This document shows positions 4,835 through 32,801 of a stretch of 64,000 bases of DNA, in pieces; position 1 is the first letter of the stretch; the number at the start of each line of letters is the position of its first letter. The position numbers were made by a program, and so were the translations under genes. The stretch spans positions 1,116,001 through 1,180,000 of the forward strand of contig NZ_CP060717.1 in NCBI RefSeq assembly GCF_014396585.1, given 5' to 3'. The notes beneath the pieces were generated by a model. The model had not been told where the DNA came from and ran no database searches. It worked only from the letters and a program-made list of their open reading frames with translations. The stretch comes from Sphingomonas rhizophila. Its GTDB lineage: Bacteria; Pseudomonadota; Alphaproteobacteria; Sphingomonadales; Sphingomonadaceae.

Positions 4835-5848
4835 GTGTCGTCATTGCCCGCCCAGCCATTGGCCGTTTCACTTGGCGACCCCGCCGGGATCGGTCCGGAA
4901 GTCGTCGGCAAATGCTGGGACTATCGCGCGCGACTGGACCTTCCGCCGTTCGTGGCCATTGGTGACCCGCGAAGCCTGGCCGCCGTGTGGGACGGGCCAA
5001 TCGCGACCATCGACGACCCGCGGGAGGCGGACAGCGCGTTCGACATCGGATTGCCGCTGCTGGCGCTGGCCTCGGCCGAGCCGGACGTCCCCGGCGTGCC
5101 GAGCGTGGCCGGAGCCCACTGTTCGCTCGATTCGCTGGAGCTTGCGGTGGGACTGGCCCGGTCGGGCTCCGCGTCGGCGGTGGTCACCGGACCCGTGTCC
5201 AAGGTGCAGCTTTACGCGATTGGCTTCAGTCATCCCGGCCAGACGGAATTCGTCGCCGAACGGTGCGGCGTATCGTCGTCCAATGTCGCCATGATGCTTG
5301 CCGGGCCCACGCTTCGGACCGTCCCCGTCACCACCCACATTCCGCTGGCCGATGCGAGCAGCCTGTTGTCAACCTCTCTGATCGAGGCGAGAGCGCGGGC
5401 GACCCTGCGCGGCCTTCAGCGCAACTTCGGCATTGCCGATCCCCGTCTGGCCATCGCCGGGTTCAACCCGCACGCGGGCGAAGGAGGCGCGCTCGGTCGC
5501 GAAGAGATCGAGATCATCATCCCGGCGATCGACAATCTCCGGGCCGAAGGTTGGGACGTGACGGGTCCGCACCCTGCCGATACGATGTTCCATGCGGCCG
5601 CCCGAGCCCGCTACGACGCAGCGCTCTGCATGTATCATGACCAGGCGTTGATCCCCTTGAAAGCGCTCCATTTCGACGAGGGCGTGAACCTGACGCTGGG
5701 TCTGCCGATCGTCCGGACCGCCCCCGACCATGGCACCGCGTTCGATATTGCCGGCTTGGACCGCGCCGAACCAACGGCAATGGCGGCGGCGATCCGAATG
5801 GCGGCCAGCTGTGCGGCGCAACGCGCGGCAAACCTTCACCGGGCATGA
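4835..5848 (+). CDS. pdxA: 4-hydroxythreonine-4-phosphate dehydrogenase
   Basis: NAD-dependent oxidation of 4-phosphohydroxy-threonine in the DXP-independent-start branch of pyridoxal phosphate synthesis; a cytosolic dimer with a bound divalent metal. The 337-residue length is normal. Family motifs are visible: SLGDPAGIGPEV at the N-terminus, the metal-binding GFNPHAGEGG, HPADTMFH, and MYHDQALIPLK near the C-terminus. It begins with GTG ten bases after surA and overlaps rsmA by four bases (ATGA), which implies translational coupling. Confidence 0.95.
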   Translation: MSSLPAQPLAVSLGDPAGIGPEVVGKCWDYRARLDLPPFVAIGDPRSLAAVWDGPIATIDDPREADSAFDIGLPLLALASAEPDVPGVPSVAGAHCSLDSLELAVGLARSGSASAVVTGPVSKVQLYAIGFSHPGQTEFVAERCGVSSSNVAMMLAGPTLRTVPVTTHIPLADASSLLSTSLIEARARATLRGLQRNFGIADPRLAIAGFNPHAGEGGALGREEIEIIIPAIDNLRAEGWDVTGPHPADTMFHAAARARYDAALCMYHDQALIPLKALHFDEGVNLTLGLPIVRTAPDHGTAFDIAGLDRAEPTAMAAAIRMAASCAAQRAANLHRA

Positions 5849-6687
5849 GCGGGGACCCTGACGCCCCCGACGGGCCGGAGCCGCTGCGGTCCGTCATCGC
5901 CCGGCACGGCCTGTCCGCGTCAAAGGCGCTAGGCCAAAATTTCATCCTCGACCGGCAGCTCCTCGCCCGGATCGCGACCATTCCCGGCCTCGCACCCGGA
6001 GACAGGGTGTATGAGGTTGGACCCGGCCCGGGCGGCCTGACTCGAGCATTGCTCGACACGGGCGCCTCGGTCGTCGCCGTCGAACGTGACCGCCGTTGCA
6101 TCCCGGCCTTGGCGGAACTGGGGGCGGAGAGCGCTAACCGCCTGTCGCTGATCGAGGGCGATGCGCTGGAGGTGGACGAGGAACGTGAGGCCGGAACCGG
6201 TGCGCACATCGTCGCCAACCTGCCTTACAATGTCGGCACGGCCCTGCTGCTGCGGTGGCTCGGCGGCGAACGATGGCCGCCTTGGTGGAGCTCGCTGACC
6301 CTGATGTTCCAGAAAGAAGTCGCCGAGCGGATCGTCGCTCGAGCGGGCGACGATGCCTACGGCCGGCTGGCGGTCGCGGCGCAATGGCGATCGACTCCGC
6401 GGATTGCCATGCCCGTCCACCGCTCCGCCTTTGTCCCCCCGCCGAAAGTGGCGTCCGCCGTCGTTCACCTCGTCCCCGCCGCCGAGCCGGAGGGGGTCGA
6501 TCCTGCCGTTCTGGAAAGGCTCACCGCCGCTGCTTTCGGTCAGCGCCGGAAAATGCTTCGTCAGTCGCTCAAGGCGATGCCGGGTGCACTCGACGCGCTG
6601 GCAACATTGGGGATCGACCCGGCGCGGCGGGCGGAAACGGTCAGCGTCGACGAATATGTCGCGCTGGCGCGGCGGCTTTCGGCCTAG
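5845..6687 (+). CDS. rsmA: 16S rRNA (adenine1518-N6/adenine1519-N6)-dimethyltransferase
   Basis: RsmA (KsgA) dimethylates the two adjacent adenines in the 3' terminal loop of 16S rRNA late in 30S assembly. The protein (280 aa) opens with the substrate-binding segment KALGQNFILD, followed by SAM motif I (VGPGPGGLTRALL, about 58-70) and the catalytic NLPYN tetrad region (about residue 120). It is last in the lptD-surA-pdxA-rsmA operon. Its TAG stop lies in a CTAG shared with the opposing TPR gene, so no spacer is left for a terminator. Confidence 0.95.
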   Translation: MSGDPDAPDGPEPLRSVIARHGLSASKALGQNFILDRQLLARIATIPGLAPGDRVYEVGPGPGGLTRALLDTGASVVAVERDRRCIPALAELGAESANRLSLIEGDALEVDEEREAGTGAHIVANLPYNVGTALLLRWLGGERWPPWWSSLTLMFQKEVAERIVARAGDDAYGRLAVAAQWRSTPRIAMPVHRSAFVPPPKVASAVVHLVPAAEPEGVDPAVLERLTAAAFGQRRKMLRQSLKAMPGALDALATLGIDPARRAETVSVDEYVALARRLSA

Positions 6688-7181
6688 TTGACCTTCTTCG
6701 CCGTCGCGGGGGTCGCGGCGGCCATCGCCGGGCCCTTGACGATCGACGCCGACAGCGATGCCACCTGCGAGCAGCCCGCCGTACCGCACAGCTTCTGCAA
6801 CTTGGCGAGATTATCCTTGGCGCGAGGCAGCGCGCCAAGCTCAACCATCGCCTGCCCCTGGACCAGCAGCGCCTCGCGGTCGGTAGGTTCCATCGACAGC
6901 GCCTTGTTCGTCAGGCGAATCGCCTTTCCGAAGAGCTTTTGACGGATCGCCACCTTGCCCAGCGTGACAAACGCCGCGCGATTGCGCGGATCTACCGCCA
7001 GGGCAGTTTCGAGTGAATCGGCAGCAGCGTCCAGATTTCCCGACGCAAGTGATGCCTGGGCTTGAGTGGTCAGTTCAATGGAGCGCGGGATGATCTGGTC
7101 ATCCGGCTTCTGGGTCATACCGGGGACCGACAGGGCCGACGCGGCCAGGCCCAGGGTCAGTGCAAGCGGCGAAAAACGCAT
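6684..7181 (-). CDS. Secreted tetratricopeptide-repeat protein
   Basis: Small exported TPR protein of about 165 residues, with no enzymatic motif. The chosen ATG at 7181 has GGAG about seven bases upstream and gives a clean signal peptide (MRFSPLALTLGLAASALS). Two to three TPR helices follow, marked by ASLASGNLDAAADSLETAL and FGKAIRLTNKALSMEP, and there is a short Ala/Thr/Lys tail. Longer upstream starts in the same frame would bury the signal peptide. It is third behind guaB and rsmB on the same strand, 26 bases after rsmB. Such proteins usually act as periplasmic scaffolds; the partner is unknown. Confidence 0.75.
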   Translation of the reverse strand: MRFSPLALTLGLAASALSVPGMTQKPDDQIIPRSIELTTQAQASLASGNLDAAADSLETALAVDPRNRAAFVTLGKVAIRQKLFGKAIRLTNKALSMEPTDREALLVQGQAMVELGALPRAKDNLAKLQKLCGTAGCSQVASLSASIVKGPAMAAATPATAKKVN

Positions 7182-28378: not shown

Positions 28379-28672
28379 ATGACGACGGGGCAAGTCAGCG
28401 TGGCGACGAGCGATTTCGACGAGTTGGATTCGACGCTCCGCGCTATCCTCCAGGAAACATTGTCCCTGTCCCGCGAACGGGTCGCTGGGTTCACCGACGC
28501 AACCGAATTGTTCGGTGCGCTGCCAGAATTGGACTCGATGGCGGTCGCGACGCTCCTGACGGCGATCGAGGAGCGACTCGGCATCCTGATCGAGGACGAC
28601 GATGTCGAGGCCGAGGATTTCGCGACCTACGGCAGCCTCCTCGCCTTCGCGCGCCGCAAGGCCCTCCAGTAA
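28379..28672 (+). CDS. Acyl carrier protein of the exosortase A-associated set
   Basis: Acidic 97-residue carrier protein. The phosphopantetheine attachment serine is Ser53 in PELDSMAVATLL, followed by a typical helix II-III (EERLGILIEDDDVEAEDF). Start ATG at 28379, 77 bases from the divergent ligase gene. It is clearly not the fatty-acid ACP (AcpP) by sequence, and its position beside a ligase and PLP enzyme indicates a dedicated carrier. Confidence 0.86.
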   Translation: MTTGQVSVATSDFDELDSTLRAILQETLSLSRERVAGFTDATELFGALPELDSMAVATLLTAIEERLGILIEDDDVEAEDFATYGSLLAFARRKALQ

Positions 28673-28676
28673 TCAA

Positions 28677-31588
<2,912 letters not shown>

Positions 31589-31667: not shown

Positions 31668-31988
31668 TCAGTCTCGGGGAGGCGGGATCTCGATTTCGAG
31701 ATGGCGTCCCGTGAGCGCGGCAAGTTGGGCGGACGGCTCGAACGATGACGTCGGACGACGTTGAGGCGCTCCGACGAACGGGGCGGCAGGGAGGGCGGAG
31801 GCGCAGCCCATCGTGCAGTCGCTCGACATTGCTTTGCCTTGGGCTGGCGCCTTTTCCTCACAATGGCCCAGCACCGAGGCCTTGACTACTGTCGTCGGTG
31901 CGGCGGCCGCAGGCTGCATCGCCAATGGCGACAACAGCAGCGCCATCAACGCTGCCCACTTCAGAAAAGACTGGACTAGCGGGATCAT
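31668..31988 (-). CDS. Small secreted Cys-containing protein of the thiol/metal operon
   Basis: Exported protein of 106 residues: a signal peptide (FLKWAALMALLLSPLAMQPAAAA), then a short mature region with three cysteines (LGHCEEKAP and SDCTMGCASALP), and a C-terminus ending EIEIPPPRD. The layout, a hydrophobic leader plus His/Cys motifs, resembles small periplasmic proteins found in sphingomonad heavy-metal clusters. No defined domain is recognised. Its ATG overlaps the MauE stop (TGATG), so it is translated together with the glutaredoxin-MauE gene. Confidence 0.65.
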   Translation of the reverse strand: MIPLVQSFLKWAALMALLLSPLAMQPAAAAPTTVVKASVLGHCEEKAPAQGKAMSSDCTMGCASALPAAPFVGAPQRRPTSSFEPSAQLAALTGRHLEIEIPPPRD

Positions 31989-32763
31989 CAGCGCGCCAAC
32001 GCGTGATGCCCGCTTCCGGGTTCAACCAGCATCCAGACTGCCATGCCGATCATGAGCAGATTCTCGGTAAGCGAGACAAAGCCAAGCGGCACGTTGCTCG
32101 ATCCACCTACGCAGGCACACTTCAATTCCCGGCGGTCGATATAGACTGCCTTGAATACCGAAACGGCGCCGATCGATCCGATCGTCAGTGCAATCGGAAT
32201 CGATAGCCAGTGTGCAACGCCGGCGATCATCAGGACACCCGCCAACGCCTCAGCGAACGGATAGATGTAGCTGTAAGGAACCCAGCGGCGCGCGAGCAGG
32301 TCGTAGTTGAGGAACATCGCCGAGAAGGTTTCGACATTCTGGAGCTTCAACATGGCGAGGACGGTCATCGAAAATGCGATGAACCATTTCAGTGCCTGGA
32401 CCGTGAACGGATCGCCGAACGCCGCCATGCTCGTCGCCAGCGCCATCAGTGCAGTGATGGTGAAAATGGCAATGACGGGGCGATAGCTGACGGCCTTGGA
32501 ATCGGCGACCGGCTTGCCAAGGTAACGCCGAAGGTCGTCGTAGCCGCCAATGCGCTGTCCCCGATGAAAATCTGGGGAGTTGTCGCAACCGCATGTTGCG
32601 CTTTGAATGCGTCGGTTTCCTCACGCGTCGTGAGGTGATGATCCTCGACCGTAAAGCCCTCGCGTCGAAGCAGGTCGACCGCCTTGAGGCCCCACGGACA
32701 GACATGGTTCGCCATCACCATGCGGTGAATTACGGCCGTCTTTGGGTACGAATCGTTGTTCAT
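31988..32763 (-). CDS. Glutaredoxin-MauE/DoxX fusion membrane protein, frame broken once
   Basis: The N-terminal glutaredoxin domain (CPWG redox motif in ANHVCPWGLKAVDLL, cis-Pro TTPQIFIGD) is followed by a four-helix MauE/DoxX domain carrying KCACVGG. Separate frames cover the two halves. Adding one base at about 32556 gives GD-x-RIGGYDDLRRYLGKPVAD and a continuous 258-residue protein, an architecture I know from sphingomonads. Such proteins are expected to move electrons or thiols across the inner membrane. The start ATG sits about six bases from the predicted -10 element, so the transcript may be leaderless; Met14 or Met16 are alternatives. Confidence 0.78.
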
Positions 32764-32769
32764 GGCACA

Positions 32770-32801
32770 TGCTTAGCTTCCGTACCATGGTACGGAATCA
32801 A
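32770..32801 (-). promoter_or_regulatory. MerR-family-type promoter and operator of the glutaredoxin-MauE operon
   Basis: On the minus strand a -35 box TTGATT (32801-32796) and a -10 box TAAGCA (32775-32770) are separated by 20 bases, too long for an ordinary sigma-70 promoter. The spacer is nearly filled by the perfect palindrome TTCCGTACCATGGTACGGAA (32778-32797). Its half-sites CCGTAC-N4-GTACGG are those of the mercury mer operator, which also lies in an over-long spacer. This is the hallmark of promoters untwisted by MerR-type activators. Confidence 0.75.

Follow-up and report, generated by a model that had tools for sequence, protein, structure and literature searches.

A mer-type operator-promoter of a glutaredoxin-MauE operon in Sphingomonas rhizophila: probable copper defence under a distant MerR-family regulator

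Which metal does a mercury-type operator serve when it stands before an operon that holds none of the classical mer genes, and which regulator reads it? A promoter in a 64,000-nucleotide stretch of the S. rhizophila genome (the window) poses both questions. Which metal a MerR-family regulator senses is usually guessed from its operator, from its nearest named homologue and from a Ser/Cys rule for a single position. In our case these guides conflict: operator and homologue point to mercury, the regulon points to copper, and the selector residue is an arginine. We assign a probability of roughly 75% to the reading that this operator-promoter serves a defence operon against copper (Cu(I), perhaps also Ag or Au), controlled by a distant MerR-family regulator of a distinct clade. 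On this copper-defence reading, and with the same confidence, the DNA-binding half of the regulator and the half-sites are mercury-like, while the sensing site and the regulon are copper-like.

The promoter and the operon behind it

The promoter is read on the minus strand and comprises a -35 box TTGATT (32796..32801) and a -10 box TAAGCA (32770..32775) separated by a 20-bp spacer (32776..32795). A pattern scan places the operator CCGTACCATGGTACGG, of the form CCGTAC-N4-GTACGG, at 32780..32795, and the site is kept at orthologous loci; the full 20-bp palindrome TTCCGTACCATGGTACGGAA spans 32778..32797. The preliminary description had put this palindrome inside the 20-base spacer of TTGATT/TAAGCA. 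Boxes, spacer and palindrome all stand, but the palindrome extends past the spacer and shares two bases with the -35 box. The description's assignment to over-long MerR-type promoters with mer-type half-sites agrees with what we found, as the palindrome occupies a spacer in the 19-20 bp range of such promoters (20 bp) and its half-sites are those of mer operators.

The exact pattern CCGTAC-N4-GTACGG occurs once in the genome (2,557,483 bp). Copies with up to two mismatches proved uninformative because they are rarer genome-wide than matches to the reversed control (51 forward versus 117), and we dropped them as evidence; the window holds three against 1.63 expected, and three or more arose in 22 of 100 shuffles. 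When the operator was scanned together with its adjoining -35 box (TTGAYTCCGTACYNYRGTACGG, up to two mismatches), three rows were returned that represent two distinct places in the genome, one row being the window site on the opposite strand, and the reversed control gave none. Promoter and terminator scans gave nothing exceeding shuffles.

The end of the -10 box lies 6 nt from the ATG at 32763, and we therefore predict that the operon is transcribed into a leaderless mRNA that starts on this ATG. The spacing between -10 box and start is alike, within 3 nt, at 13 of 67 loci with both operator and glutaredoxin-MauE gene (ATG or GTG starts; from the best 80 of at least 551 named matches). Such closeness of -10 box and glutaredoxin-MauE start, with the same prediction of a leaderless mRNA, occurs among others at L211, L216, L227, L242, L244, L246 and L250, and several Novosphingobium loci have it.

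The first gene (31988-32763, minus strand) encodes the two parts of a glutaredoxin-MauE (Grx-MauE) protein in two mutually out-of-frame ORFs. The glutaredoxin part (32446..32763, minus; PF00462, 25.2 bits against a cut-off of 22.9) carries CPWG and is out of frame in its last third; the MauE part (31988..32446, minus; PF07291, 53.5 bits against 27) lies in the other frame and keeps its CxC motif; the break falls near 32545-32575. The fusion protein named in the preliminary description thus exists in most relatives, whose genes are mostly a single open frame (a few have in-frame stops), but not in the window as assembled. The Grx-MauE cysteines, one in CPxG and the CxC of MauE, are invariant in 65 of 65 proteins from named genomes (from the best 80 of at least 551). 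The operator was present at 26 of 30 fetched Grx-MauE loci, so some of the family is not under its control; many weaker Grx-MauE matches lie outside this count.

Two further genes follow on the minus strand, both from ORF reading. A 106-aa protein with a signal-like N-terminus and Cys and His residues (31668..31988) fits the secreted Cys/His protein described earlier. The next gene, with an assumed TTG start, encodes a 472-aa Met/His-rich protein that also has a signal-like N-terminus (30170..31588); it has 10 His and 12 Met within its first 170 residues, and its relatives adjoin the regulator or the operator in other loci. Neither protein matched a family in Pfam or NCBIfam. By ORF reading and Pfam, there is no merA, merT or merP among the operon's genes, in line with the earlier account, and the operon thereby lacks the hallmark of a mer operon. 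A thioredoxin reductase gene, trxB (by eye; 29160-30125, minus), begins 45 bp past the end of the Met/His-rich gene and is read in the same direction; we rejected it as a conserved operon neighbour, with one weak match in 155 loci.

The broken first gene bears on a different reading of the site, namely that the operon is decaying in this organism and the operator, though intact, is a relic. Besides the split of Grx-MauE over two frames, two genomes of the genus speak for decay: one has Grx-MauE without the operator (G077) and another has regulator and peptide without a Grx-MauE match (G197). Arrangements in the genus also include a linked one (G145) and one with regulator and Grx-MauE both present but apart (G000). 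Against it, both promoter boxes and the palindrome are intact, and a gene at 28602-29265 (plus strand), which we take to be a GNAT-type acetyltransferase, also appears by eye to be split, into two overlapping frames. As this second gene looks split too, indel errors in the assembly are the likely cause. We regard decay as unlikely.

A distant regulator with its own copy of the operator

The preliminary description had noted the absence of a MerR gene from the window and had proposed an unlinked regulator. Both points stand: a genome search for MerR-family proteins and for operator copies found five MerR-family matches, all outside the window, and the second of the two operator-plus-(-35) places lies at one of them. 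There, 1.07 Mb from the window site, CCGTACCATGGTCCGG (C1:2218269-2218284), one of four single-mismatch operator copies in the genome, lies directly upstream of a MerR-family gene encoding 128 aa (C1:2218308-2218694). Read in the opposite direction, the same site presents TTGACT-20 bp-TAGAGA before a gene encoding a peptide of 33 aa, eight of them cysteines (C1:2218105-2218206). A near-identical operator at an unlinked MerR-family gene argues that the proposed distant regulator exists, and we consider the promoter and its unlinked regulator well supported. At the level of sequence, the same operator is shown to precede the regulator gene, a gene for a putative Cys-rich, metallothionein-like peptide, and the window operon.

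The other four MerR-family genes were rejected as partners after inspection of their sequences by eye. One, a CueR-like gene whose product has a selector Ser, forms a separate locus with Cu-ATPase and oxidase genes; one is CadR/PbrR-like and has a ACCCTGTAG-type site; the remaining two are unlike metal sensors of this kind.

Regulator matches at E≤1e-20 were found in 71 of 199 family genomes (91 rows). We took as orthologues the 54 rows of at least 50% identity, leaving out 37 rows of 37-46%. Seven of these 37 were fetched, and because they have Cys at the selector (7/7), a CDF transporter gene nearby (6/7) and a CACCCTG-type site (6/7, by eye), we class the fetched rows as CadR/PbrR-like. The operator, at up to two mismatches, lies just upstream of the regulator in all 54 orthologues. 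The divergent partner of the regulator gene is Grx-MauE in 47 and the Met/His-rich gene in two; in the other five it is, by eye, a Cys-rich peptide gene (four) or a broken Grx start (one). All 54 regulator-side promoters have a -35 box with TTG, and 51 have TA of the -10 box at spacer 20.

Scanning the family genomes for the operator with its -35 box gave matches in 52 of 199, at 63 distinct places, against five for the reversed control. Fifty-three places are at orthologue regulators, one is at a Grx-MauE gene with a contig end (G193), six lie at other positions, upstream of genes for copper functions, peptides or Grx-MauE, and three have no clear partner (G118, G169 and G182) and were set aside, with no regulator orthologue beside them. 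The G169 site (L173 ~4530, plus strand) has no TA at spacer 20 and lies upstream of a gene that by eye we take to encode a PCuAC-like copper chaperone; in G169 the regulator search gave no match at E≤1e-20.

A class-wide sample gave a regulator match at E≤1e-25 in five of 289 genomes, our own included, and each of the four other loci carries the operator at no more than one mismatch in 22 bases. We also scanned named GTDB genomes with peptide patterns in the DNA-binding half, taken from 15 aligned regulators, and kept the best 80 of at least 551 matches; these are mostly from Alphaproteobacteria with a few from Gammaproteobacteria, and they share some contigs with the earlier sets, so that the sets overlap. 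Among these best 80, the operator with its -35 box was present at up to two mismatches in 22 bases in 77, Grx-MauE was divergent in 72, and TA stood at spacer 20 in 64. Six annotated plasmid records all carry the operator at up to three mismatches in 22. ORFs of fetched loci were called with a GC-frame filter. The palindrome is therefore conserved at orthologous loci, as the preliminary description would lead one to expect, and these counts show that the pairing of regulator clade and operator holds across genera and classes alike. Our search of titles and abstract openings in the open-access literature found no description of the pair.

A mercury-like lineage with a copper-like regulon

The selector residue, located by alignment and by counting at a constant distance of 35 residues ahead of the first loop cysteine, is Arg in 54 of 54 orthologues, the position at which the same alignment has Cys in both annotated Hg regulators and Ser in both CueR rows. 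The metal loop is C-x7-C in all 54, without a further Cys in 49. Among the best 80 of at least 551 named regulators, the selector is Arg in 73 and His in seven, and the loop is C-x7-C in 77 and C-x6-C in three; the His residues are those of L214, L217, L222, L254, L260, L264 and L268. Ser at this position marks monovalent-metal sensors and Cys divalent-metal sensors, according to the accessible part of one report (PMC11591864). That part gives Ser for Cu(I), and we found no report of Arg in a Cu(I) MerR-type site.

Sequence comparisons connect the regulator to the mercury side of the family. In NCBIfam it stays below all equivalog cut-offs, scoring 93.5 against a cut-off of 150.85 for Hg MerR and 78.6 against 147.4 for CueR, and in a PDB search the Hg MerR is its best match (82.4 bits, versus 53.5 for CueR). 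In a 76-row tree, which is limited by few columns, long branches and few reference rows, the 64 clade rows group together (100/95) and join three Hg-type rows, of which two are annotated and one is an unannotated Cupriavidus sequence, apart from the CueR/CadR-like rows (100/98). The clade likely originated on the Hg branch of the MerR family.

The genes behind the operator point to copper. Away from the regulator, the operator stands before a Cu-ATPase gene at L116, before CopC-CopD at L117 (CopD exceeds its equivalog cut-off), before DUF305 at L118, before a CopC-like gene at L119 and before a Cys peptide gene at L120. Cu-translocating ATPases over the TIGR01511 cut-off stand behind the operator at L116, L238 and L254, and in the latter two, both gammaproteobacterial, the Cu-type ATPase itself is divergent from the regulator; the operator-linked ATPases also exceed a looser cadmium subfamily cut-off. 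At L119, Grx-MauE is followed by a copper_res_A multicopper oxidase and CopB, and at L240 a multicopper oxidase lies behind a broken Grx. From their usual roles, we presume that CopB and DUF305 belong with the copper-type targets. In the plasmid annotation, copper genes flank the regulator in Paracoccus and Agrobacterium. The Sphingomonas naphthae record lists the Co/Ni transporter dmeF along with a copper-binding protein and an RND pump, Sphingobium YBL2 has Grx together with DUF305, and S. meliloti has Grx alone; the Rhizobium record is sparsely annotated.

Genes for Cys-rich peptides of 25-40 aa stand behind the operator at L021 (10106-10207, minus), L120, L122, L123, L124, L192, L219 and L239, and the C-terminal end of the peptides is mostly CxCxPC[TN]CxxCxC. 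Seven distinct peptides were found by shape, all with the operator upstream, and an eighth by eye, although this link is not an independent test because the loci themselves had been chosen for a regulator or an operator. The two that we searched have no Pfam or NCBIfam family. L021 also has a ThiC-like gene (4937-6199, plus), behind which a further, incomplete ThiC-like C-terminus is encoded (6459-6965, plus; both by eye).

Overall, regulon and metal site together indicate that the cognate metal is probably copper or another monovalent metal, and the Grx-MauE operon, with copper-type genes behind the same operator elsewhere, suits the non-canonical thiol/metal target that had been proposed. 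Several points weigh against copper: only 22 of the 80 named loci (best 80 of at least 551) matched any of seven copper queries within ~5 kb, so most show none; the S. naphthae plasmid has dmeF; the selector is Arg rather than Ser; one named locus has merT/merP-like genes; and the genome already has its CueR-like locus. At that one locus, in Sphingomonas sp. Leaf33 (L253 219-850, minus), the merT/merP-like genes lie ~1 kb behind Grx-MauE and a Met/His-rich gene.

MerR-type regulators activate transcription by untwisting the spacer. On the copper-defence reading, the metal-free dimer would sit on the 20-bp spacer and keep the promoter off. The two cysteines of the C-x7-C loop would hold Cu(I), the invariant Arg standing in for the third Hg ligand, and the Cu(I)-bound dimer would untwist the spacer and thereby let RNA polymerase initiate. 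Grx-MauE, the secreted Cys protein, the Met/His-rich protein and the distant Cys peptide may then act in thiol protection or repair and in copper binding or movement.

The loop could instead respond to oxidative or thiol stress by forming a disulfide between its cysteines, with metal genes in the regulon since metals cause such stress. That a glutaredoxin fusion is the commonest target (47/54) and that most regulators have just two cysteines (49/54) would suit such a redox switch, but the nameable targets are genes of metal export and sequestration, and the loop spacing is the same as in the CueR rows; we think it improbable. A true mercury switch, in which an Hg(II)-sensing regulator would govern a reduced, thiol-based mercury defence, is very improbable, and we reject mercury, the metal of the preliminary description: the half-sites do equal those of real mer operators (L186 and L187, and the accessible parts of PMC1526738 and PMC11049809), the best structural match is Hg MerR, and merT/merP lie downstream at one named locus, but all 54 orthologues have Arg where the first of the three Hg-site cysteines would stand, the Hg MerR score is below its cut-off, no MerA in the genome exceeds the cut-off, 1 of the 80 named loci (best 80 of at least 551) matched any of five mer queries, and the operator precedes Cu-ATPase and CopC-CopD genes, the nameable regulon genes being of copper type.

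Implications and known systems

We see about an even chance that the clade is a second, independent lineage of Cu(I) or monovalent-metal sensors derived from the mercury branch of the MerR family, with Arg (in some, His) for the Hg-ligand Cys, the mercury operator kept, a spacer of mostly 20 bp, and half-sites shared by copper and mercury regulons. Spacer length may help to separate the two kinds of regulon, though some printed mer promoters also have 20 bp. The usual route to a regulator's metal could mislead where a mer-like operator serves copper-defence genes, which, if the reading is true, calls for caution in annotation and biosensor design based on the mer operator. It would also make a Ser-independent Cu(I) site testable, and would give a physiological setting to Grx-MauE proteins and to a family of tiny Cys peptides.

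The nearest known system by operator is that of the Hg(II) regulator MerR, which shares with our clade the half-sites TCCGTAC-N4-GTACGGA and a divergent regulator (as far as the accessible parts of PMC1526738 and PMC11049809 go), as well as the DNA-binding half, and is the nearest solved structure to our regulator. Our clade differs by its Arg for the Hg-ligand Cys, by its copper-type regulon, and by its spacer, which measures 20 bp in 51 of 54 promoters against 19 bp in the classical mer promoter; three mer loci in the part of PMC1526738 that we drew on nevertheless combine the same palindrome with 20 bp. The CueR/HmrR regulators of Cu(I) resemble the clade in their C-x7-C loop without a third Cys and in targets that include a copper ATPase and a multicopper oxidase (accessible parts of PMC1526738 and PMC11591864). 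Unlike the clade, with its CCGTAC, selector Arg, separate place in the tree and CueR score below the cut-off, they have, in print, ACCTTCC-type operators and a selector Ser.

SmGrx3 of Sinorhizobium meliloti is a Grx(CPYG)-MauE protein (PMC6315971) with the domain order and CPxG motif common to relatives of the window gene; in the window the two domains lie in different frames, and the accessible text on SmGrx3 gives neither a copper link nor a regulator. In Bordetella pertussis, the copper-induced copZ-prxgrx-gorB operon is under CueR (PMC7794356). Its enzymes, which are different ones, and its CueR regulator set it apart, and the part of that report available to us mentions no mer-type operator. 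It shares with the arrangement proposed here a glutaredoxin-type thiol enzyme under a copper-responsive MerR-family regulator, with copper the putative metal in our case.
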